Assembly: GCF_002938425.1 (NCBI RefSeq) | Contig: NZ_POQU01000003.1 | Location: forward strand, 1 to 64,000 | Direction: 5' to 3' | DNA length: 64,000 bases | DNA from: Blastococcus atacamensis | GTDB lineage: Bacteria; Actinomycetota; Actinomycetes; Mycobacteriales; Geodermatophilaceae | In this document: positions 32,126 to 55,502 of the stretch, one piece after another | Position numbering within the stretch: position 1 is the first letter of the stretch | Layout of the letters: the number at the start of each line of letters is the position of its first letter | Made by a program: the position numbers and the translations under genes | The notes under the pieces: model-generated | Databases searched by the model: none | What the model saw: only the letters and a program-made list of their open reading frames with translations | What the model was told of the DNA's origin: nothing

Positions 32126-32252
32126 GGGGAGTGCCGCTTGCGCAGCTCGGTGTCAGGGGTCACCGGTGGGGTCCGGCCGCGGGTCCTGAGTCACGGTCGT
32201 GCGGGACGTCTTCCCCTGGGACGCGTCGACGCGCGGACACGAGGCTACTGAG

Positions 32253-34811
32253 GTGGAACCCCGCGCGTTCTCGGCCTGCTCTGACGCCGTATCCGGTGAG
32301 CCAGTTCTGACCGGCCTCGATCAGGTCGGGGGGGCGGCGCCGTGGTCGCGGCCCGCCACAGAGGTCGCCCGGGATCTGGAGGCCGACCCGCGCACCGGTC
32401 TGGACGACCCCGTAGCGAGAGCCCGGCTGGCTGCCGACGGTCCGAACGAGATAGCGACCCGACGGCCGCTGTCGCTCCTGCGGTCGATCCTCGCCCAGCT
32501 CACCGACCCGCTGATCCTGGTGCTGATCGGGGCCGCTGTGCTCACCGCCATAACAGGGGACTTCGTCGACTGTGCAGTGATCCTGCTGGTCATCACGGTC
32601 AACACCACCCTCGGCGTCGTCCAGGAACGGAGGGCGATCCGCGCCGTCCGCGCCCTGACGACCCTCGTGGCGCCGAACGCCCGGGTGGTCCGTGGCGGAC
32701 GGGACGTCTGGGTCCCGACGCGAGGCCTGGTTCGCGGCGACGTCCTGCGACTGAGCGCCGGGGACATCGTCGGCGCCGATGCGCGCCTGGTGCGCAGCAC
32801 CCGCCTACAGGTGGACGAGTCGCTGCTGACGGGCGAGGCACTCCCGGTCGACCGATCCGCCGAGGCGATCGCACCCGAAGACGGGCCGGTGGCGGATCGA
32901 AGCGGCATGGTGCACGCGGGTACGTCTGTGGTCCGCGGTACCGGAGAGGCCGTCGTCGTCGCCACCGGCATGGCCAGCGCCATCGGTCGGGTGGCCGCGC
33001 TGGTGCAGGAGGGAGAGTCACCCCGCACGCCGCTGCAGCGGCGGCTCGACCGGCTGGGACGGCAGATCTCGGTCGCAGTCGTGTTCGCGTGCCTGGTCTT
33101 CCTCCTGCTCGGGCTGCTGCGCGGACAACCGTGGGAGATCACGGCCGTTGCCGCCGTGGCGCTGGCCGTGGCGGCGGTGCCGGACTCCCTGCCGGCCGTC
33201 GTCACGCTTGCACTGGCAGGGGGGGCCTCCCGGATGAGCAGGCGGGGCGCCGTCGTCCGCTCCTTGCCGGCGGTCGAGACGCTGGGGTCGGTGACCCTGC
33301 TTGCCACGGACAAGACCGGCACGCTGACCCGCGGCGCCATGGTCGCCGACCGCTCGTGGACCCCGGCGGACGGAGACCGCCCGCTCGACGGAGCGGTCCC
33401 TGCTGGCACCCGGTCTCTGCTGGAAGCGGCAGCGCTGTGCAACGACGCGGACCCGACGGGGGCGGGCGAGGCCGGGACCGCGGGATCGGCCGACACGGAG
33501 ACCTCACTCGTACGGGCAGCCCGCGACGCCGGTATCGACGTCGCGGCGCTGCGCTCCGCATACCCGCGTGTGCACGAGGAGCCCTTCGACGCGGTCACCC
33601 GCAGAATGACCACGGAGCATCGGGAGCCGGGTTCCGGGTCCAGCACGATCACCAAGGGTGCGCCGGAGGTGATCTTGCCCGGGCTGGCCGGTGCCGGGGA
33701 CGCCGTGCCGGTCGCCGAGCGCTGGGCAAGGGAGGGTCGGCGGGTGCTCGCCGTGGCCCGCGACGGTCGCCTCCTGGGTTTGGTCGCGCTCGATGACCCG
33801 GTCCGCCCGGAGGCGGCGGAAGCCATCGCGTCTTGCCACCGTGCCGGGATCCGGCCGGTGCTCGTCACCGGCGACCACGCCGGTACGGCCGAGGCCGTGG
33901 CGCGAGCCGTCGGCCTGGTGGACGACGCGCACCCCGCCGAGGGGCACGTGCTGGCCCGGGTGGAACCTGAGGGCAAGCTGCGGTACATCACCGGGTGGCA
34001 GGCCGCGGGGCACGTCGTCGCGATGACCGGGGACGGTGTCAACGACGCGCCGGCCCTGCGCGCGGCCGACATCGGCGTGGCGATGGGACAGCGCGGCACC
34101 GAAGTGGCCAAGGAGGCCGCTGACCTCGTCTTGGCCGATGACAGCCTGGCCACGGTGACCGCGGCCATCGCCGAGGGCCGGCGCGTGTACGACAACGTGC
34201 GGCGGTTCGTCGGCTATGGCATCGCCGGGGGCGCGAGCGAGGTCCTGGTCATGCTCCTGGGCCCGTTCTTCGGACTGGCACTGCCCCTCCTGCCGGCCCA
34301 GATCCTCTGGGTCAACCTGCTCACGCACGGGCCCGTCGGTGTGGCGATGGGAGCCGAGCCTGCTGCCCCCGACGTCCTGCGTCGGCCACCCCGCGATCCG
34401 TCGAGCGGAGTGTTCGACCGCTCGTTGACGCTGCGCACGATCGGGCTCGCCGTCGCCATCGCCGCCGTCTGCCTCGCGGTGGCCACCTGGTCGCGGGCCG
34501 GTGGTGGGCCCTGGCAGACGCAGTTGTTCGTGGTCCTGACCGTGGCGCAGCTGGCCCTGGCGCTGGTCCTGCGGCCGGGCGGCGCCTGGCGCGGCGGAAC
34601 GGGTGCCCTCTGGCTACCGGTCGCCGTCGTCACCAACGGGCTGCTCCTGGTTGCCGGGGTGTACCTGCCGGGTCTGTCGGATGTGCTGCGCACGGAGCCG
34701 CTCGCCGGCGCCGAGTTCGCTGTCGCCGCCGGGGCAGGGTTCCTGCCCGCGGCCGTCCTCTTGCTCGTGCGCCTCGTCGGCCGGCACACCCGGGCGGACC
34801 TGGCCCGTTGA
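32253..34811 (+). CDS. P-type cation-transporting ATPase (P2/CtpF-like)
   Basis: An 852-residue P-type ATPase. N-terminal cation-ATPase segment (GLDDPVARARLAADGPNEI), dephosphorylation motif LLTGEALPV, phosphorylation site DKTGTLT (Asp about residue 352), hinge MTGDGVNDAPAL, and a C-terminal set of transmembrane helices are complete. The fourth-helix motif PEGLP of P2-type pumps reads PDSLP here, which may change ion selectivity. It resembles the DosR-regulated CtpF of mycobacteria. Start is uncertain: GTG 32,253 is preferred, GTG 32,199 is an alternative. Confidence 0.85.
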   Translation: MEPRAFSACSDAVSGEPVLTGLDQVGGAAPWSRPATEVARDLEADPRTGLDDPVARARLAADGPNEIATRRPLSLLRSILAQLTDPLILVLIGAAVLTAITGDFVDCAVILLVITVNTTLGVVQERRAIRAVRALTTLVAPNARVVRGGRDVWVPTRGLVRGDVLRLSAGDIVGADARLVRSTRLQVDESLLTGEALPVDRSAEAIAPEDGPVADRSGMVHAGTSVVRGTGEAVVVATGMASAIGRVAALVQEGESPRTPLQRRLDRLGRQISVAVVFACLVFLLLGLLRGQPWEITAVAAVALAVAAVPDSLPAVVTLALAGGASRMSRRGAVVRSLPAVETLGSVTLLATDKTGTLTRGAMVADRSWTPADGDRPLDGAVPAGTRSLLEAAALCNDADPTGAGEAGTAGSADTETSLVRAARDAGIDVAALRSAYPRVHEEPFDAVTRRMTTEHREPGSGSSTITKGAPEVILPGLAGAGDAVPVAERWAREGRRVLAVARDGRLLGLVALDDPVRPEAAEAIASCHRAGIRPVLVTGDHAGTAEAVARAVGLVDDAHPAEGHVLARVEPEGKLRYITGWQAAGHVVAMTGDGVNDAPALRAADIGVAMGQRGTEVAKEAADLVLADDSLATVTAAIAEGRRVYDNVRRFVGYGIAGGASEVLVMLLGPFFGLALPLLPAQILWVNLLTHGPVGVAMGAEPAAPDVLRRPPRDPSSGVFDRSLTLRTIGLAVAIAAVCLAVATWSRAGGGPWQTQLFVVLTVAQLALALVLRPGGAWRGGTGALWLPVAVVTNGLLLVAGVYLPGLSDVLRTEPLAGAEFAVAAGAGFLPAAVLLLVRLVGRHTRADLAR

Positions 34812-35471
34812 GTGATGCCAGGACATCCGAGCCGGGCTCGCGGCGCGACCCCGATTACCAGGGCCGCGGACAGGGACGCCGACCAGCAGGTTGAGCAGAG
34901 CGCCCGCTGTGACCCCGGCAGTTCCTCCGCCGACCACGTCGAGAGGGGCGTGCCCGCCGAGGTACACGCGCGCCACGGCGTTCAGGACCGCCAGCGCGAC
35001 TACGACGACCAGCCAACGGCGGCGCAGGTACGGGGCCAGGACGACCACGATCCCGAACGCGATGATCGCGTGGCCCGACGGGAAGGACAGCCCCGCCGAG
35101 GGGACGTCCCGCAGGACCGCGCCGGGGATCGTGGTGCCGGGGCGCTCGCGGTGCACGAACTCCTTGAGCAGCCCACGCTCGACGCCCAATTTGACCGGCA
35201 CGAGCAGCCCAAGCCCCAGCGCCAGCCGCCACCGCCGCAGCGCCAGCGCGGCGGACGCCACGAGCAGTGGCATCCCGAGCACGCCGAGGGTCTGGAAGAC
35301 CCACAGCGGCCGCTCCAAAACATCTGGCCACCGGTTCACGAAGGCGAAGACCTGTCTTTCGGGGTTCCCGACGGTCCCCGGCGACACCGCCCAGGCGCAC
35401 AGCCCCGTGACGGCGGCTGCGGCGAGCGCGGTGCCCGCGTCGGCCGTTCGGCGCCGGAAGGCCCGGCTCAT
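34614..35471 (-). CDS. PAP2 family phosphatase
   Basis: A 285-residue membrane phosphatase of the PAP2 (type 2 phosphatidic acid phosphatase) superfamily. The three motifs are present: KEFVHRERP (K-x6-RP), FPSGHAI, and RVYLGGHAPLD. Five or six hydrophobic helices surround them. The frame stops at 34,614 after a hydrophilic tail of about 60 residues that overlaps the 3' end of the convergent ATPase gene by 198 bases; the tail is not family-like and may reflect a lost stop. ATG overlaps the stop of the upstream YbhN gene (35,468). Confidence 0.78.
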   Translation of the reverse strand: MSRAFRRRTADAGTALAAAAVTGLCAWAVSPGTVGNPERQVFAFVNRWPDVLERPLWVFQTLGVLGMPLLVASAALALRRWRLALGLGLLVPVKLGVERGLLKEFVHRERPGTTIPGAVLRDVPSAGLSFPSGHAIIAFGIVVVLAPYLRRRWLVVVVALAVLNAVARVYLGGHAPLDVVGGGTAGVTAGALLNLLVGVPVRGPGNRGRAASPARMSWHHSTGQVRPGVPADEAHEQEDGRGQEPCPGGDSELGAGERLRAQHIRQTRQVHPGNQEQPVGDDGDR

Positions 35472-36553
35472 GCGAGGGTCCGTCGCTGCTCGGGTCGGGA
35501 CGGCACTCGCCCGGCGCCACGTCGCCACAGCAGCCAGGCGCCCAGCCCCAGCGGGATCGGCAGGAACCAGGTCAGCAACCGGAACAGCAGCACCGCGCCC
35601 GCTGCCCCTGTGGAGGCCACCCCGACGGCGGTCAGGCCGGCGACGTAGCTGAGCTCGGCCACCCCGAGCGCGCCTGGCGTGAGGGGCACGATGGTGACGA
35701 GCCGGGTCACGGAGAACACCGCCAGGACGACGATCCAGTGGACGTCGGCGCCCTCGCCGTCGACGGTCCGCAGGCAGGCCAGGAGCAGGCAGAACAGCGC
35801 CGCGTGGCTCGCGATGGCGGCTGCAGTGAGATTCAACCAGCGATGTCTCAGCAGCTCGAGGGAGTCGGTCCGGAACCGGTCGGTCCGCTCCACCCACTCC
35901 GACGGACCCGTGCGGCCCCGCCGGAGTGCGATCCGGGTCGCGAGCCGCTCGGCGGTGCCGGCCAGCGCCGCGCCGGCCCGGCGGTTGGTGAGGGTGACCA
36001 GCAGCGCGGCTACGGCGGCGAACAGGACGACGCTGCCGAGCACGGCAGCGACGGTCAGCCCTGCTGTCGCGTCACTCACCAGGACCAGCCCGCCCAGCGC
36101 CGCCGCGGGCATGGCCGATTTGACGAGGTTGTTCCAGATGCCGGTCAGCGCCACCGCGCGCGTGATGATCGCGCTCGTGAACCCGAAGGAGTGGTACATC
36201 GCCGCCGTGGTCCCCACGCCGAACGCGAACCCGGCCGGCACCGTGTTCGAGATCGCCGTCGAGGCCTGATCGGCCATCAGGGCGCGCCACCACGTCAGTC
36301 CCGGAACGGCTGCCATCCAGAGGGGGGCGTAGGACATCAGATTCACTGCGCCGAGGACCGCGACGAGCACCGCCTCCGGTCCTGACAGCGAGCGCACGAG
36401 GCGCCAGGCCAGTCCGTAGTCGGCGATCTGCGGCAGCACGCCGGCGAAGACTGCGACCACCACGCCGATGGTGAGCCCGAGGCGCACGGCCGGACCGGAG
36501 GCCACCCGTCGCAGCCCGGCGCCCCTGCGGGGTTGCGGCTGGGCGATGGTCAC
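35468..36553 (-). CDS. YbhN/UPF0104 (LPG-synthase-type) membrane protein
   Basis: A 361-residue membrane protein of the lysylphosphatidylglycerol synthase transmembrane family (UPF0104, YbhN). The conserved segments are present: AISNTVPAGFAFGVGTT near residue 105 and TRLVTIVPLTPGALGVAEL near residue 290. The family has flippase-like or lipid-modifying membrane domains. There is no synthetase domain. GTG start overlaps the stop of the following upstream gene; the stop overlaps the PAP2 start, so three genes form one minus-strand operon. Confidence 0.82.
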   Translation of the reverse strand: MTIAQPQPRRGAGLRRVASGPAVRLGLTIGVVVAVFAGVLPQIADYGLAWRLVRSLSGPEAVLVAVLGAVNLMSYAPLWMAAVPGLTWWRALMADQASTAISNTVPAGFAFGVGTTAAMYHSFGFTSAIITRAVALTGIWNNLVKSAMPAAALGGLVLVSDATAGLTVAAVLGSVVLFAAVAALLVTLTNRRAGAALAGTAERLATRIALRRGRTGPSEWVERTDRFRTDSLELLRHRWLNLTAAAIASHAALFCLLLACLRTVDGEGADVHWIVVLAVFSVTRLVTIVPLTPGALGVAELSYVAGLTAVGVASTGAAGAVLLFRLLTWFLPIPLGLGAWLLWRRGAGRVPSRPEQRRTLA

Positions 36554-38985
36554 GTCACGAAGCGGTGCTCGAACCGCGCCGCCAGCAGTGAGCCGAGTCC
36601 AGCCGGCACCCAGTACGTGAGGAGCCGGAAGGCGAGGACGCCGGCGCAGGCGCTGGCCAGTGGGGCGCCCAGCGAGGTGAGCGTCAGGAGGAGGCCCACG
36701 TCGGCGGCGCCCGGCAGGCCCGTCGCCGGCAGGACCGACCAGAGCAGGTGCAGGGCGCCGTAGACCGCCACCGTGGCCAGCAGTGGCACGTCAGCGCCCA
36801 CGGCATGCACCGCGGCTGCGAGTGCGGCGGCCTCGAGGGCCACACCGAGTGATGCCCAGCCGAGCTGCGGCCACCACTTCCAGCCGCCCGGGGCGCTGCG
36901 GTGCCGCCGCCAGGTCAGGGCCTCGCGCAAGGTCAGGGCCACGTGCCGTTGCGGGTCCCCGGCGCCCGCCGGCCGGGTGGCCGATCCGTGCCGGTGAGCC
37001 AGCCATTGGCCCACCAGCACCAACGCCCACGCTGCGATGCCCAATAGGCCGGCCGGGACAAGCGATTCCGGCGTACGCCACCCCGTGAGCCGGCCCTCCA
37101 CCATCGCCAGCACGAACGTGCCGATCGCCACCACGGCCGCCGCCCCGATCGCCCCAGCGAGGAACCGGTCGGTCGCCCGCCGGGCCGGCTCCTCGAGGAC
37201 GCCGGCCCGCTCGAGATAGCGGGCGGTGGAGCGGCGCCAGCCGGTGCGGCCGTGGAGCAGAGTCGCTCCCTCCGCCACCATGGCGGCGCCGAAGGTCCGG
37301 GCAAGAGCGATTCGTCGGTCGACTGTCAACAACGCGGCGGCCGCCATGGCGGCGCGCGCCAGGATCACGAGGGCCAGGGCGCCGCCCAGCCACCGCCATC
37401 CGCCGACCTCCACCGACTCGATGACATCCGTCGCCCCGCCGAGGAACGGCACGCCGGCCAGGATCAGGGCGACGCCCGCCCCTACGGCCGCGCGGGCGGC
37501 GACGCTTGCGGGGCCGAACTGGGGACGAGTCGGATCGGGCAGGTTCAGTTGGCGGCGGAGCTCGCGCCGCAGTCCGCTGAGCCGTCCGGGCTGTCCCCGC
37601 TCACCCTCCCGTGTCGCCGCGGAGAGAGTCAGCGGCCGGAGGCCGGGGAGTGCCGCGCTGACGACGTCGGGACCGAGGGTGCCCAGCGCGGAGTCGACGA
37701 CGAGGGCCGGGTCGATCCGGAGGGAGAGGGACGCCATCAGCTCGGCCACATCTCCGTCGAGCGCCCGATCGTCCGCCCCCGTCAGCGCGTTGCCGAAGTC
37801 CACGAGCCACGGCTCGCCGCCCCCGTCGACCAGCACGCTGGAGGCCACCAGGTCGTGGTGAGCCACCCTCGCCGCCCGTAGCCGTGCCACCTGCTGCCAG
37901 ACCCGGGCCAGGAGGTCGGGCGTGAGGTCGTCCGGCCGCAGCTCCTCGAGCGTCCGACCGGCGATGAACTCCTGCACGACGACAGCGCCACGGTCGCTGC
38001 CCCGGGCGAGGACGACCGGCGGGGTCCGGACGCCTCGTTCCCGGGCCGTCATCGCCGCCACCGCCTCGTGCTCCGCCTGCTGACCCAGCGGCGCCACCGC
38101 GTCGGCATCCTTGATGTCGCGCACGGCGATGAGGCGATAGAGGCGGTAGAGCCAGTCCCGCTCGAAGCGGTCCGGGTCCAGGACCTTCACGTACAGGCGA
38201 CGACCCGCCTCGTCCACGGCCGTGAAGGGGTGGGAGCTGCGCGCATGGACGCCCGCCGGACGCAGCTGGTGGACGGGCAGGCCACACCGTTGAAGCATGC
38301 CGGCGATCTGGGCTGTCGCCGGCTCCCACCGCGGGACGCCGAACAGGTAGTGCACGAGCGCGCCGATCGCCCAGCCCACCGCCGCACCGCACAGGACGTC
38401 CAGGGGGAGGTGCGCGCCGACGTAGACCCGGGCCATGGCAACCGTGAGGGCCAGTGCCCATGCCACCCGCCGTCCTCTGCGGGAGAGGTACGGGACCGCC
38501 GCGGTGGCGAGGGCCGCGGCTACGGCGGCGTGCCCGGAGACGAAGCCGATGCCGCTCACGTCCCCGTCGAGCAGATTCGCGTCGACGAGACCGGCCGGTC
38601 GCTCCCGCCCGACGACGCTCTTCACCAGGTCGGCGGCGACGTAGGCCAGGAGTCCCGAGGTCAGCATGTCGCGGGCCATCCGAAAGCGGCCGGTCAGCGC
38701 GGCGACCGCCGCAACGGCCGGTACGGCGACCATGTTCCCGAGTTGCATGACCGCCCAGACCATCGGAAAGACGTTCTCCGGCAGGTCGTTGACGATCCGG
38801 AAGAGATCGTGCTCCAACACCGGGAGCTCGCCTCGCTGCGCGATCAGGAAGCCGATCCCGAACACCGCCAGGCCGAGAGCCGCCCGCACGAGGTCGACCT
38901 GATTCCGCTGCACCTTCCTGCGGCGGGCATGGTCCCCGCCCTCGGTGCGGCGGGCGGGTGGCGTCGTCATGACCGGGATCGTCAT
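36550..38985 (-). CDS. PAP2 phosphatase - kinase-like - YbhN triple fusion
   Basis: An 811-residue protein joining three modules. Residues about 60-220 are a PAP2 phosphatase with intact motifs KSVVGRERP, VSGHAAV and RVYVGAHLPLD. Residues about 240-480 are a protein/lipid kinase-like domain: VKVL lysine, HHDLVASSVLV catalytic loop, VDFGNA. In the loop the metal-binding Asn of kinases is replaced. Residues about 510-811 are a YbhN-type membrane domain (ending PATGLPGAADVGLLLTL). It begins the three-gene operon. Known actinobacterial architecture but of unknown function; a link with polyprenyl- or phospholipid phosphate handling is an inference. Confidence 0.8.
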   Translation of the reverse strand: MTIPVMTTPPARRTEGGDHARRRKVQRNQVDLVRAALGLAVFGIGFLIAQRGELPVLEHDLFRIVNDLPENVFPMVWAVMQLGNMVAVPAVAAVAALTGRFRMARDMLTSGLLAYVAADLVKSVVGRERPAGLVDANLLDGDVSGIGFVSGHAAVAAALATAAVPYLSRRGRRVAWALALTVAMARVYVGAHLPLDVLCGAAVGWAIGALVHYLFGVPRWEPATAQIAGMLQRCGLPVHQLRPAGVHARSSHPFTAVDEAGRRLYVKVLDPDRFERDWLYRLYRLIAVRDIKDADAVAPLGQQAEHEAVAAMTARERGVRTPPVVLARGSDRGAVVVQEFIAGRTLEELRPDDLTPDLLARVWQQVARLRAARVAHHDLVASSVLVDGGGEPWLVDFGNALTGADDRALDGDVAELMASLSLRIDPALVVDSALGTLGPDVVSAALPGLRPLTLSAATREGERGQPGRLSGLRRELRRQLNLPDPTRPQFGPASVAARAAVGAGVALILAGVPFLGGATDVIESVEVGGWRWLGGALALVILARAAMAAAALLTVDRRIALARTFGAAMVAEGATLLHGRTGWRRSTARYLERAGVLEEPARRATDRFLAGAIGAAAVVAIGTFVLAMVEGRLTGWRTPESLVPAGLLGIAAWALVLVGQWLAHRHGSATRPAGAGDPQRHVALTLREALTWRRHRSAPGGWKWWPQLGWASLGVALEAAALAAAVHAVGADVPLLATVAVYGALHLLWSVLPATGLPGAADVGLLLTLTSLGAPLASACAGVLAFRLLTYWVPAGLGSLLAARFEHRFVT

Positions 38986-39071
38986 CCCGTCACTTCATAC
39001 CGTGACCGGTTCCGGTGGGCAGGGTCTTGCGGCCCGTTGCAGCAGGCCCGCGGTCCTCCCTCGGCAGGGAG

Positions 39072-39108
39072 CGGACGTTGGTCCCGGGCGATCGGGGACG
39101 GTCGTCCC
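39072..39108. promoter_or_regulatory. Candidate DosR-like box pair between divergent kinase genes
   Basis: GGGACGGTCGTCCC at 39,095-39,108 is a perfect GGGAC-N4-GTCCC palindrome. CGGACGTTGGTCCC at 39,072-39,085 has one mismatch and is 23 bases away, about two helical turns. They lie 76 bases before the plus-strand kinase gene and about 90 bases before the minus-strand triple fusion, so one site could serve both operons. Confidence 0.5.
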
Positions 39109-39183
39109 GCGACCGCACGGCTCCCTAGCGGCAGTATCGCGGGTGGTTCGCGCGCATCGGGCGCCCACCATCAGGAGGACGAC

Positions 39184-40866
39184 GTGGACACCCCGCCCCG
39201 CGGTAGGCTGGCCCGCGTCGCTGACGTGCGGCGGCCATCGTGGCCGGCCGCCACCGCGCGGCGCCGTCCGTCGGGGCAGGAACGTGTCACCCACCTGCGC
39301 GACCCGGGCCGAATCCGGACCTGGGCCGTCGTGCTGGTGACGTCACTCACGGCGTTGGTCCTCTTGCGCCTCGTCACCGAGCAGGCGGGTCCCGTTCAGT
39401 CGGTCGATCGGGCGATCCGCGACGTACTCAGCGGCTGGCCGGCCCGTGGCGTGGCGGAGCATCTCGACGCCGCCGCCACCGCTGCCGGTTACCGACTGCT
39501 CTGGCTGCCCGTCGCGGTGGTCCTGACCTGGTTCGTACGCTGGCGGCACCTGATCGTCTACCTGGGCACGGTGTCGGTCGTCGCCGCCGCAACCCAGGTC
39601 GTGGCGGGAGACGCCCATTTTGCCGAGGTCGTGCGGCGCGGTGTCACGGGTTCCGCCGATGCCGTGGTCGTGCCGGCCTGGCCGGTGATCGTGCTGGCTG
39701 CGGTGGTCGGGGCGACGGTGCTCGTTCTGTTCCCGTCGGGCCGTGCGCGCCGGTGGGGTGCTGTGGCGGGGATCGTCGCCGTGGCGACCATGGCCGCGGC
39801 CCGGGTGAGCCTGGGGCTGGACAGCGCCTTCGCCACGATGGCCAGTGCACCCCTGGGCTGGAGTGCCGCGGCTCTCGCCTTCGTCGTGTTCGCCCCGGAC
39901 CGCGAGTTCCCCGTGCACTACCGGCGAGAGGTGAAGGCGCACCTGCGCCTCGACGACACCCGCAAGGCCCGGATCATCGCCGCGGTCCGGGCTCAGTTGG
40001 GTATCCCGCTCACCGGCCTCGCCCCCTACCGTCTCGACGGATCGGCCGGTTCCACGCCGTGCCGCCTGGTCGTCGCGGACGGTCCGCCCGACCTGCTGTT
40101 CGGCAAGCTGTACGCCACGACGCATCTGCGGTCGGACCGCTGGTACAAGTATCTCCGCGTGCTGCGCTACGGCCGCCTGGAGGACGAGGCGCCGTTCTCG
40201 TCGGTGCGCCGGCTGGTCGAGCACGAGGACTACATGCTCCGGCTGCTGCGCGACGGGGGCGTGCAGGTGCCTGAGCCCGGGGGAGTGGTCGAGGTGATAC
40301 CGGGCCGCGAGTACCTGCTGGTCACAGAACTCGTCCCGGGTGCCGTGGAGATCCTCGAGTCGGGCGTTTCCGATGAGGTGATCGATGACGCGCTGCTGCA
40401 GGTCTTCCGCCTGTGGCAGGCCGGGGCCGCGCACCGGGACATCAAGCCGTCCAATGTCCTGGTGCAGGGCTGCCGCGTCGTCCTGATCGACGTGTCCTTC
40501 GGGGAGTTGAGACCCTCGCGGTGGCGGCAGGCCGTCGACCTGGCGAACATGATGCTCATCCTCTCGCTCGCATCTGGCGCCGAGCGGGTACTCGAACGGT
40601 CGGCACGGTTCTTCTCGCATGACGAGGTGGCAGAGGCCTTCGCGGCGACCAGTTCCCTGACCGTTCCGCGCCAGCTCAGGCGACTGCTCGACGCCGACGG
40701 CCGCGACCTGGTGACCGAGTTCCGTCGTCTGCTGCCTGCCAGGCCCCCCATCAGGGTGCAGCGGTGGAGCCTCGTGCGGGTGTTGCTGGCCCTGGCGGCG
40801 CTGGCCGGTGCACTACTCACCATCCTGCTCGTGGGGCTGAACCTGCGGGCCGGCGGTCTGCTGTGA
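39184..40866 (+). CDS. Membrane protein with degenerate PAP2 and kinase domain
   Basis: A 560-residue protein with about six N-terminal transmembrane helices laid out like PAP2 but without its catalytic residues (the third motif reads RVSLGLDSAFA with the His and Asp missing; no PSGH). A kinase-like domain follows (about 270-480): LLFGKLY, VTELVPGAVE, HRDIKPSNVLV and LIDVSFGE in the DFG position. A last hydrophobic helix closes the protein. Unlike the divergent fusion, its catalytic loop keeps the Asn. GTG 39,184 has AGGAGGAC upstream; the stop overlaps the next gene (GTGA). Confidence 0.78.
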   Translation: MDTPPRGRLARVADVRRPSWPAATARRRPSGQERVTHLRDPGRIRTWAVVLVTSLTALVLLRLVTEQAGPVQSVDRAIRDVLSGWPARGVAEHLDAAATAAGYRLLWLPVAVVLTWFVRWRHLIVYLGTVSVVAAATQVVAGDAHFAEVVRRGVTGSADAVVVPAWPVIVLAAVVGATVLVLFPSGRARRWGAVAGIVAVATMAAARVSLGLDSAFATMASAPLGWSAAALAFVVFAPDREFPVHYRREVKAHLRLDDTRKARIIAAVRAQLGIPLTGLAPYRLDGSAGSTPCRLVVADGPPDLLFGKLYATTHLRSDRWYKYLRVLRYGRLEDEAPFSSVRRLVEHEDYMLRLLRDGGVQVPEPGGVVEVIPGREYLLVTELVPGAVEILESGVSDEVIDDALLQVFRLWQAGAAHRDIKPSNVLVQGCRVVLIDVSFGELRPSRWRQAVDLANMMLILSLASGAERVLERSARFFSHDEVAEAFAATSSLTVPRQLRRLLDADGRDLVTEFRRLLPARPPIRVQRWSLVRVLLALAALAGALLTILLVGLNLRAGGLL

Positions 40867-42317
40867 CGGCGACGGAGAGGATGCGTGCCGGTAGAGCGCC
40901 CCGCGCCGGACCGGCCGCCGCGTCGAGGATGGACATCCCACGCCGGCCCCAAGTCCCGGAGAACGGGCTGAGTGCGCCCGCAGTCGCCGAGCGGGTCGCA
41001 GCGGGCCAGACCAACGCCACCTCGATGCGGACGAGCCGGACGCTCCCGGACATCGTGCGCGCCAACGTCTTCACCTTCTTCAACACCCTCCTCGCCGGCC
41101 TGTGCGTGATCGCGGTGATGACCGGTCGGTGGCAGAACGCGGTCTTCGGCGGCGTCGTTGTCGCCAACGCCGCGATCGGCATCGTCCAGGAGATGCGCGC
41201 GAAGCGAACCCTGGACCGGCTCGCCGTGCTGAACGCTCCCCGGGCCCGGGTCCTCCGGGACGGGGTCGAGTGTGATGTGCCGGTCGCCGCCGTGGTCCTC
41301 GACGACCTGCTGCTGGTCACCGCGGGGGACCAGGTGCCTGCCGACGGCCTCGTGCTGACGTCGAGTGGGCTCGCCGTCGACGAGTCACTGCTCACCGGCG
41401 AGGCAGATGCGGTCGCCAAGCGTCCGGGGGACGCCGTGTGGTCCGGCGCGATCGTGGTCTCGGGGCAAGCGCGGGTCCAGGCCGTCGCGGTGGGGGAGTC
41501 GTCGTATGCGGCTGGCCTGGCCGCAGAGGTACGCCGGTTCACCGTCACGTATTCGGAGCTGGTCGCGAGCACCAACCGAGTGCTGCGCTGGATCGCGATC
41601 ATGCTGCTGGTCGTCGGCCCCGCCGTTCTCTGGAGCCAGTTCCGCACGTCGGAGAACGAGGGCTGGCGAGAAGCGGTGACCGGCACGGTGGCGGCGATGG
41701 TCGGCATGATCCCGGAGGGCTTGGTCCTGCTGACGACGCTGGCCTTCATGGTGGCGACGCTGACGCTGGCCCGCAGGCAGGTGCTGGTCCAGGAGCTGCC
41801 CGCCGTCGAGGGCCTGGCCCGCGTGGACGTCGTCTGTCTGGACAAGACGGGCACCCTCACTTACGGCGACATCCGGTTCCACCGACTCGTCCTCCTGGAC
41901 GCCGACTCCGACCCGCCGACCACCAGCCGGCCACCCTCGAGGGCGGCGACGTCCCCGACCGTGGAGGTTCACATGTCCGACACCCCTTTCCCGTTCACCG
42001 GGGCTGGTCAGACCGTCGCCTTCGCTTCTCCCTACGAGAAGGACGGCGCCAACGTCGTCACCGTCACGGCGTGGCTTCCACGCGCAGATGTCGGGGCAAT
42101 CGCCCGATGGGGGCGTTCGTGGTCCGGGATGGCCGGGTCCGCTGGCATCCGGTCGTGGACTTCACCAGGGTCATCGCCACCGCAGAACTGGTGGTCGGGG
42201 TCTCATGATCGCGAGACGGCTTGCGGCTCGCCCCAGCGCCGCGAAGGCGGCCGTGACCATGGGGCCCGGGGGCTGGGGCAACATGAAGGGCGGCGTGATG
42301 GCAGTGCGGCCCGCTGA
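40863..42317 (+). pseudogene. 3'-truncated CtpE-like P-type ATPase
   Basis: From the overlapping GTG 40,863 the frame matches CtpE-type calcium/cation ATPases: GLSAPAVAERVAAGQTNA, RTLPDIVRANVFTFFN, LLTGEADAVAK, IPEGLVLL and the phosphorylation site LDKTGTLT (about residue 325). Homology stops about 41,910, some 20 residues after the phosphorylated Asp. The nucleotide-binding domain, GDGxND hinge and last six helices are missing. The frame then runs on through an unrelated gene to 42,317. No active pump can be made. Confidence 0.8.
41973..42208 (+). pseudogene. Frameshifted GerW/YtfJ-type protein fragment
   Basis: From about 41,973 the frame reads GQTVAFASPYEKDGANVVTV, and after a shift near 42,100 another frame reads PMGAFVVRDGRVRWHPVVDFTR to a TGA at 42,206-42,208. 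Both halves match the ends of GerW/YtfJ-family proteins (once called sporulation protein YtfJ). The Gly-rich middle part usual for the family is almost absent. It overlaps the read-through tail of the truncated ATPase. Confidence 0.6.
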
Positions 42318-50021: not shown

Positions 50022-50063
50022 GGGACCTCCGTCCCTGCCGGCCATCGGAGGGACGCAGGTCCC
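50022..50063. promoter_or_regulatory. Two perfect DosR-like boxes in divergent promoter
   Basis: GGGACCTCCGTCCC (50,022-50,035) and GGGACGCAGGTCCC (50,050-50,063) are both perfect GGGAC-N4-GTCCC palindromes, 28 bases apart. They lie 84 bases from the CBS start and 101 bases from the Usp start, in the only gap between two divergent stress operons. This is the strongest regulatory signal in the window. Confidence 0.6.
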
Positions 50064-54450: not shown

Positions 54451-54634
54451 CGAGGCGGCTCGAATCGCTGAGCTGGAGCGGGAGAACCGGGAGCTGCGCC
54501 GGGCCAACGAGATCCTCAAGACGGCGTCGGCGTTTTTCGCCCAGGCGGAGCTCGACCGCCGACTGAAGTGCTCGTCGAGTACATCGACGAGCACAGGGGG
54601 CGCTTCGGGGTCGAGCCGGTCTGCGCGGTGTTGA
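54236..54634 (+). CDS. IS3-family transposase OrfA
   Basis: A 132-residue frame: helix-turn-helix (YPDELRERAIRLAVEARR; INPETLRNWVTQAEID) and a leucine-zipper segment (ARIAELERENRELRRANEILK) as in IS3 OrfA. The native part ends near RRLK; the rest is overlap with orfB. A TTTTTC run at 54,533-54,538 is a candidate -1 slippage site for making OrfAB. Confidence 0.82.
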   Translation: MRMRVIAAPRKYPDELRERAIRLAVEARRDPATRPGALARVGKQLGINPETLRNWVTQAEIDAGHRPGTTTDEAARIAELERENRELRRANEILKTASAFFAQAELDRRLKCSSSTSTSTGGASGSSRSARC

Positions 54635-55502
54635 GGGACACCGGCGTGCAGATCGCCCCGAGCACCTACTACGCGGCCAAGATCCGGCCGCCCTCGGCAC
54701 GGTCGGTCACCGACGCGGCGACCACCGCGGTGATCGAGCAGGTGCACGCCGAGAACTTCGGCGTCTACGGCGCCCGCAAGATGCACGCCCAGCTGCACCG
54801 GCAGGGCCACCGGGTGGCCCGCTGCACTGTCGAGCGGCTGATGCGCACGGCCGGGCTGCGCGGCATTACCGGGGCGAAGGGTCCGCGGACCACGGTGCCC
54901 GGCACCGGCCCGGACACCCGCCCGGACCTGGTCGATCGGGCCTTCACCGCCACCGGCCCGGACCGGCTGTGGGTTGCCGACATCACCTACTGCCGCACCT
55001 TCGCCGGCTGGGTCTATGCCGCGTTCGTCGTCGACGTCTACTTCCGCCGGGTGGTCGGCCGGCAGCTGTCGCGCTCGCTGCGCACTGAGCTGGCCCTCGA
55101 CGTGCTGGAGATGGGCATCTGGACCCGCCGCCGGGCCGGCCGGGACCTCGGCGGACTGATTCACCACTCGGACAAGGGCGTTCAGTACGTCGCCGTGGGC
55201 TACACCCAGCGGCTCGCCGACGCCGGCCGGTCGCCTCCGTCGGCTCGACCGGGGACGCGTATGACAACGCGCTGGCCGAGGCGTTCAACTCGCTGTTCAA
55301 GGCCGAGCCGGTCCGCAACAGGGGCCTGTTGAAGGGCATCGACGACCTCGAGATCGCCGTCGCCGAGTACGTGGACTGGTTCGACCACCGACGCCTACAC
55401 GGCGAGATCGGCCTTGTTCCACTGGCCGAGCACGAGGAGGACTTCTACCGGCACAACACCGCGGCGACTACCGTCGCCGCGTCAGTTCCGAGTCTCCACT
55501 GA
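54568..55502 (+). pseudogene. IS3-family transposase OrfB, frameshifted
   Basis: The DDE integrase core starts in one frame with the first Asp in WVADITYCRTF and the second in HHSDKGVQYV. Near 55,225-55,238 the frame changes; the third catalytic residue appears in the new frame in NALAEAFNSLFKAE, followed by YVDWFDHRRLHGEIG and a TGA at 55,500-55,502. One frame alone stops at 55,332 without the Glu. So the transposase as written is dead. Confidence 0.8.

Follow-up and report, generated by a model that had tools for sequence, protein, structure and literature searches.

A cluster of four membrane-protein genes at positions 34614-40866 of a 64,000-nucleotide stretch of Blastococcus atacamensis DNA (contig NZ_POQU01000003.1, positions 1 to 64,000; hereafter the window) joins known domains in a conserved, previously undescribed arrangement whose defects complement one another in this lineage. 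The domains are PAP2 phosphatase, RIO/Bud32-like kinase, and the YbhN-type membrane domain. It points to a membrane-lipid or membrane-sensing system of soil actinobacteria not described before. We tentatively propose, as possible but short of probable, that an inner-face kinase, a scramblase in between, and an outer-face phosphatase act on one membrane lipid. No description of the set was found among open-licence PubMed Central (PMC) papers listed for YbhN/PAP2/kinase combinations, PF03706 names, and Geodermatophilaceae; the first-pass annotation of the window had likewise stated that no function is established for it.

Three of the genes lie on the minus strand and overlap by 4 bases at each junction. 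The first encodes a solo PAP2 phosphatase (34614-35471; Pfam PAP2, 60 bits, cut-off 27.2), in which the K-x6-RP, SGH, and R-x5-H-x3-D motifs are all present. Its tail beyond approximately residue 220 is antisense to the 3' end of an ATPase gene at 32199-34811. The second encodes a solo protein with a YbhN/MprF-type lipid flippase-scramblase domain (35468-36553; PF03706, 63.5 bits, cut-off 33.4; TIGR00374, 44.1 bits, cut-off 43.2). The third, designated F (36550-38985), encodes an 811-amino-acid PAP2-kinase-YbhN fusion, as delineated by Pfam, NCBIfam, and an AlphaFold2 model. On the plus strand, D (39184-40866) encodes a 560-amino-acid protein composed of a pseudo-PAP2 domain, a kinase domain, and a C-terminal transmembrane helix. 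Judging from the sequence, its start is most likely the GTG at 39184, with AGGAGG directly before it. The first-pass annotation had described four genes with PAP2, kinase, and YbhN combinations, three of them overlapped in one operon and the fourth diverging from a shared pair of boxes. Pfam and NCBIfam confirmed the domains, and the coordinates and a pattern search confirmed the layout. A genome profile search gave three PF03706 matches and ten PAP2 matches, and two of each lie in the cluster. Since these matches are few and the same arrangement recurs in relatives, chance clustering was ruled out.

The AlphaFold2 model of F, based on 18 sequences, had a predicted local distance difference test score (pLDDT) of 81.5 and a predicted template modelling score (pTM) of 0.77. 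The PAP2 domain (amino acids 50-214; 38344-38838, minus strand) has complete catalytic motifs and scored 69.9 bits against Pfam PAP2 (cut-off 27.2). It matched LpxE of Aquifex (6ebu), a lipid phosphatase, with a Z score of 19.6 and a root-mean-square deviation (rmsd) of 2.0 over 162 of 165 residues. The RIO/Bud32-like kinase domain (amino acids 218-482; 37540-38334, minus strand) contains the Lys, HxD, and DFG elements, and Ser383 replaces the catalytic-loop Asn. It matched human PRPK (7sza; Z 17.8, rmsd 3.4, 198 residues aligned). RIO1/Bud32/Kdo-like kinase signals were given by Pfam and NCBIfam in both F and D; for RIO1 (PF01163, cut-off 22), the scores were 23.4 bits for F and 18.4 bits for D. 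The YbhN-type membrane domain (amino acids 495-805; 36571-37503, minus strand) was assigned from PF03706 and the helices of the model. Its PF03706 score is borderline, at 30.9 bits in the window and 33.5 bits in the genome search (cut-off 33.4). It is absent among the structure matches listed; because kinases occupy these lists, the fold of this part rests on sequence profiles.

The model of D, based on 69 sequences, had a pLDDT of 86.5 and a pTM of 0.81. The pseudo-PAP2 domain (amino acids 41-236; 39304-39891, plus strand) was recognized through a match of the D family profile to PgpB/YodM (5jki; E 1.7e-11, positions 49-227). The catalytic His of motif 2 and that of motif 3 are each found in 0/69 sequences. 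D had been labeled a degenerate PAP2-kinase in the first-pass annotation, and the label holds: its N-terminal half is PAP2-like without catalytic histidines. The RIO/Bud32-like kinase domain (amino acids 255-525; 39946-40758, plus strand) has complete catalytic residues. Lys308 (the beta3 Lys), the HRDxKPxN loop, and the metal-binding Asp436 are kept in 69/69 sequences. These sequences (alignment A2) comprise the window and 68 of 80 loci; 12 loci were left out by eye as near-duplicates of kept rows or incomplete. The structure matches of the kinase were RIOK3 (Z 16.0) and PRPK (Z 15.2), tied within 1 Z unit. The C-terminal transmembrane helix occupies amino acids 530-556 (40771-40851, plus strand).

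Relatives of D were collected in one scan of genome contigs, which gave 165 confirmed relatives; all clade counts below are from the best 80 of 165, and many kept loci span less than 10 kb on a side. By record title, the kept loci belong to Geodermatophilaceae, Frankiales, Acidimicrobiia, and other metagenome-assembled genomes (MAGs). Nearest in the scan were a sequence from a Modestobacter MAG, at 79% identity, and one from Blastococcus aggregatus, at 75%. Kinase domains of 69 D and 46 F sequences were compared in a midpoint-rooted FastTree tree. The F rows were the window, 28 of the 29 loci of one search (L019 had no usable match and was dropped), and 17 of another; L005 and L066 look like one record. 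D stood apart from F (support 0.94 and 1.0). Within D, clade 1 (the window and 15 others, support 0.66) was separated from clade 2 (53 sequences, support 0.87). In Geodermatophilaceae F proteins (the window and 12 others), the three PAP2 motifs are kept in 13/13. In the kinase of the same proteins Lys, HxD, and DFG are present and the catalytic-loop Asn is replaced by Ser in 13/13, so that the active site is incomplete. As read from the sequences, the defects of D and F are complementary in Geodermatophilaceae: D keeps the kinase and F keeps the PAP2 phosphatase.

By fold and loop charge, the membrane is predicted to separate the two active sites, with one on either side. In F, the loops predicted inside carry on average more Lys and Arg than Asp and Glu (3.8/2.6 at the N-terminus, 2.9/0.1, and 1.9/0.0), and the loops predicted outside average 2.2/3.8, 3.3/3.4, and 0.9/1.0. 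The PAP2 motifs of F sit in loops predicted outside, and the kinase is predicted inside. For D, the corresponding means are 9.0/3.1, 0.7/0.0, and 2.0/0.1 for inside loops and 3.1/3.7, 2.6/2.4, and 0.9/1.7 for outside loops. Because one more transmembrane helix (530-556) ends D, its C-terminus would be outside. Whether the active sites face each other had been raised in the first-pass annotation as a matter for structure prediction; the prediction, with PAP2 and kinase on opposite faces, speaks against it.

The gene neighborhood is conserved. Neighbors were counted by tblastn and by hidden Markov model (HMM) searches, the HMMs being built partly from the same loci, because a home-made codon-bias gene caller failed to call D in 6 of the 80 loci. 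F lies within 10 kb of D in 13/15 clade-1 loci (in L040, only the PAP2 part of F, at the contig end). F is also encoded in the genomes of L047 and L048, the two remaining loci, with 67% and 69% identity, respectively (the latter match ends at residue 718). L048 holds just 2.4 kb upstream of D, and in L047 over 10 kb separate F and D. In L056, a clade-2 Blastococcus, the genome gave no F match. A YbhN match outside D was found within 10 kb in 9/15 clade-1 loci, and YbhN and PAP2 were both within 10 kb in 9/15. In clade 2, YbhN was found within 10 kb in 49/65 loci (the nearest on the D strand in 42/49), PAP2 in 36/65 (same strand in 32/36), and both in 32/65. Clade-2 loci contain 53 PAP2 domains apart from that of D, and 47 of them have all three motifs. 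The co-occurrence of these architectures in other genomes, on which the first-pass annotation had staked its proposal of one pathway, is thus observed, as F near D in clade 1 and as YbhN with PAP2 in clade 2.

The proposed mechanism is a stress-regulated membrane module, controlled by a DevR/OsdR-like factor, in which these proteins would run a joint cycle of phosphorylation, transbilayer movement, and dephosphorylation on one membrane lipid. D would supply the kinase activity on the cytoplasmic side. Scrambling of the lipid between the leaflets would fall to the YbhN domains (the solo one and that of F), and the PAP2 domains (likewise the solo one and that of F) would strip the phosphate at the outer face. 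The dead PAP2 half of D could provide a lipid-binding or docking platform, and the weakened kinase half of F could act as a docking or regulatory domain. The substrate would most likely be a polyprenol/polyprenyl-phosphate carrier or a diacylglycerol-type lipid. We infer a lipid substrate, a direction, and joint action from several observations. F holds the three modules in one chain, and D co-occurs with YbhN and PAP2. The residues of the D kinase and the F PAP2 domain are conserved, intact PAP2 domains lie near clade-2 D, and the F PAP2 domain matches LpxE. Inside loops are richer in Arg/Lys than in Asp/Glu, with the PAP2 motifs opposite the kinase. MprF scramblase fusions and the DedA-PAP2 and DUF368-PAP2 fusions offer analogies. 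The result that no DgkA-type (PF01219) undecaprenol/diacylglycerol kinase was found in this genome, in a search that matched 8 of 14 controls, was also counted in favor. This absence may be general in actinobacteria, because Corynebacterium glutamicum was not among the matching controls. In a more specific version, the related pair would divide the labor across the membrane: D would be a lipid kinase of the inner face with a dead phosphatase as its scaffold, and F a phosphatase of the outer face that brings its own scramblase and has a weakened kinase as its scaffold. Driven by ATP, the two would pump the lipid in one direction or recycle it, and dormancy would turn the system on; this version we consider improbable.

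Several observations weigh against a joint lipid cycle. In L003, the F next to D has both halves intact; therefore, the split between D and F is not strict. In the F rows of L006, L007, and L108, the kinase is intact and PAP2 is lost. The F homologues of the Mycolicibacterium/Streptomyces type, a label inferred partly from plasmid matches, have lost both active sites, so that neither activity is needed to keep the F architecture. A strict rule of opposite intact halves in D and F was ruled out by these three sets of rows. After PgpB, the profile matches of D among the PDB entries listed are protein kinases, and HRDxKPxN is the form of the catalytic loop typical of Ser/Thr protein kinases. In addition, clade 2 includes 29/65 loci without PAP2 and 16/65 without YbhN within 10 kb. 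Among loci with at least 5 kb on both sides, PAP2 is missing in 13/38 and YbhN in 5/38.

The loss of both sites in the Mycolicibacterium/Streptomyces type, with the architecture kept, and the Ser in place of the catalytic-loop Asn in Geodermatophilaceae F would also fit a different role. The kinase-like domains could regulate the membrane parts by binding or hydrolyzing ATP, with no phosphotransfer to lipid or protein. The pseudokinase domain of mycobacterial MviN and the ATPase role of UbiB/ADCK proteins are models for such a regulator. The catalytic residues of D, kept in all 69 sequences over distant lineages, argue against it, and we regard it as a doubtful explanation.

A second alternative concerns D itself and draws on a feature of clade 2. 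There, an unnamed lipoprotein follows or is fused to D in 62/65 loci, and the three misses have a contig end at most 68 nt from D. In 7/65 loci, the reading frame of D continues into the lipoprotein domain (L057, truncated at the contig end, L066, L097, L100, L102, L107, and L114; L034 seems to duplicate the L066 record). These loci show the order kinase, transmembrane helix, and outside domain, which fits an outside C-terminus of D. In the lipoprotein family (e.g., L055:2857-3549; alignment A4), 11 aligned members have the lipobox Cys and four more Cys, three of them invariant. The members scanned gave no Pfam, NCBIfam, or PDB-sequence match, apart from one match below the cut-off that was judged to be chance. 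D may thus be a receptor-like signaling kinase. The dead PAP2 domain would sense a lipid phosphate, and the C-terminal transmembrane helix, in clade 2 with the outside lipoprotein domain, would sense the envelope. The kinase would phosphorylate proteins, perhaps the neighboring YbhN and PAP2 proteins, and so gate lipid scrambling or turnover. The invariant HRDxKPxN loop and the retention of a catalytically dead PAP2 domain are in keeping with such a receptor. With this protein-kinase-like loop and the outside domain of clade 2, the receptor-like reading performs nearly as well as the joint lipid cycle. On the other side, no lipoprotein lies beside D in clade 1, the clade of the window (0/15), and the D kinase is structurally closest to RIO/Bud32. 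One query, run without a positive control, found no lipoprotein in the window's genome. From the 0/15 count and this query, the lipoprotein was rejected as a part of the window's module. On balance, we rate a receptor role for D as rather unlikely and keep the joint lipid cycle as the preferred reading.

The divergent D and F starts enclose a pair of DevR/OsdR-like palindromes (39072-39108), 23 bp apart and at -112 and -89 of D. The box at 39072-39085 has one mismatch to GGGACN4GTCCC, and the box at 39095-39108 is exact. With D starts in relatives estimated from the alignment, box pairs are found at -111/-89, -111/-89, and -112/-90 in L042, L043, and L045, respectively. A palindrome with at most one mismatch occurs within 400 bp 5' of D in 12/15 clade-1 and 0/65 clade-2 loci, and the number expected from the densities in clade 1 is approximately 0.13 per 400 bp. 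Upstream of F, a palindrome was found in 4/12 cases, and most of these are the boxes of D viewed in the opposite direction. The clade-1 loci (286 kb) hold 13 exact and 94 one-mismatch-or-better copies vs. 1 and 16 for a control pattern. For the clade-2 loci (1,078 kb), the numbers are 3 and 50 vs. 0 and 69. Genome-wide, 19 exact palindromes were found (control pattern, 4), and 4 of these lie in the window vs. approximately 0.3 expected by length. On the other side, once one mismatch is allowed, the window is not enriched (11 found vs. 10.4 expected). A second exact pair lies at 50022-50063, 28 bp apart, beside CBS and universal stress protein (Usp) genes.

The window further contains three Usp genes and one CBS gene, genes for flavodoxins and for a zinc-type dehydrogenase, a gene of the PPDK type, others of the NarG/H/J type, and one resembling an F420 quinone reductase. 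The published OsdR consensus, AGGGCCGATCGGCCCT, conforms to the DevR site (PMC5069765). In its boxes, universal stress genes, and nitrate reductase genes, the window resembles the dormancy regulons of OsdR in Streptomyces coelicolor and DevR/DosR in Mycobacterium tuberculosis, and its gene content is like that of the dormancy cluster treated in the same article. The dormancy regulon passages of that article contain no PAP2-kinase-YbhN gene, and the word 'phosphatase' has no occurrence in its main text. From these sequence features, the cluster looks regulated by low-oxygen or dormancy stress. The first-pass annotation had suggested a response to stress; the boxes and the dormancy-type neighbors support this at the level of sequence. 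So many dormancy-type genes in one window, together with the distance of more than 10 kb between F and D in L047, could also mean that each gene belongs independently to one dormancy regulon and that co-regulation alone accounts for their proximity. This we judge very unlikely, with the modules fused in one polypeptide in F and with clade-2 D keeping YbhN, PAP2, and the lipoprotein nearby without boxes.

D leads into a P-type ATPase gene, as the first-pass annotation had noted; the ATPase gene overlaps the end of D by 4 bases, and the copy in the window is truncated (40863-41921, end approximate, plus strand). It holds only the E1-E2 domain and ends after the DKTGT motif. Matches to a P-type ATPase were found in 10/15 clade-1 loci; in nine of them the frame stays open for 766-823 codons, and the tenth is cut off where its contig ends. 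The truncation may be a local deletion or an assembly junction. A transposase-like gene (HTH_21 and rve) lies at 54568-55332, inside the stress island. Members of one cluster of related genes occur in 31/80 loci, mostly directly upstream of D and divergent from it (e.g., L061:8769-9761), and the one member scanned is an OpuAC-type binding protein. By eye, genes resembling polyhydroxyalkanoate (PHA) synthase and alpha/beta-hydrolase often follow the D operon in clade-2 loci of Geodermatophilaceae (L083:14508-16286, L087:16262-17113).

Among 296 genomes of the class, D matched in 7 at E ≤ 1e-12. Two of these (G024 and G061) are weak matches to F, and five remain, the window's own included. Among 296 genomes of the phylum, 21 matched at E ≤ 1e-30. 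F-like matches were found in 78 of the 296 class genomes (E ≤ 1e-30), some of them partial (PAP2 only in G009; roughly residues 20-470 in family f21). Family f22 includes adjacent pairs of F-like fusions (G124:C1, G217:C41, G090:C291, G164:C12, and G059:C1), and in its rows L010, L011, L012, and L027 both active sites are degenerate. On a plasmid of Mycolicibacterium gilvum, PAP2 adjoins an F homologue, and genes for a general stress protein and a P-type ATPase lie close by. F-like genes on plasmids are annotated as 'lysylphosphatidylglycerol synthase domain-containing protein'. If the proposed lipid cycle is true, actinobacteria would have a route to phosphorylate, move, and dephosphorylate a membrane lipid in low-oxygen or dormant life. 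This widespread fusion, which on plasmids now carries that annotation only, would gain a testable role. A function would also be provided for a conserved kinase family and for a lipoprotein family whose scanned members have no Pfam or NCBIfam name.

Several known systems are related to the cluster. The first is the MprF/YbhN/AglD family (PF03706, COG0392), an overview of which is available (PMC5898192). The transport domain of MprF is described as a promiscuous lipid scramblase, passive and acting on many lipids, and is often fused to lipid-modifying enzymes (PMC11980842). The hexSDF and gpgSDF operons pair a domain of this family with lipid-modifying enzymes (PMC10128005; PMC12713373). The cluster shares the membrane domain and its position beside or fused to lipid-acting enzymes, but here the domain is joined by PAP2 phosphatase and RIO/Bud32-like kinase modules. 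No aminoacyltransferase domain (PF09924) was listed at E ≤ 0.1 in the Pfam scan of the window proteins. Bifunctional MprF was rejected, with NF033480 scores of 41.4 bits (solo YbhN) and 19.4 bits (F) vs. an equivalog cut-off of 600. The second group comprises the RIO, Bud32 (PRPK), and Kdo-WaaP kinases. By structure, RIO and PRPK/Bud32 are nearest to both kinase domains and WaaP ranks lower, whereas the kinase domains here are built into membrane PAP2 proteins. Bud32 proper was rejected (TIGR03724, 37.2 bits for F and 31.9 bits for D vs. an equivalog cut-off of 125). The third group is LpxE, PgpB/YodM, and the undecaprenyl-diphosphatases, whose fold and three motifs are found in F and whose motifs are found in the solo PAP2 protein. 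In contrast to these enzymes, F adds a kinase and a YbhN domain, and the PAP2 domain of D is catalytically dead. Fusions of DedA and DUF368 with PAP2 have been noted among undecaprenyl-phosphate translocase families (PMC9876793). There, as in F, a phosphatase is fused to a lipid translocase; here, the translocase belongs to another family and a kinase is added.

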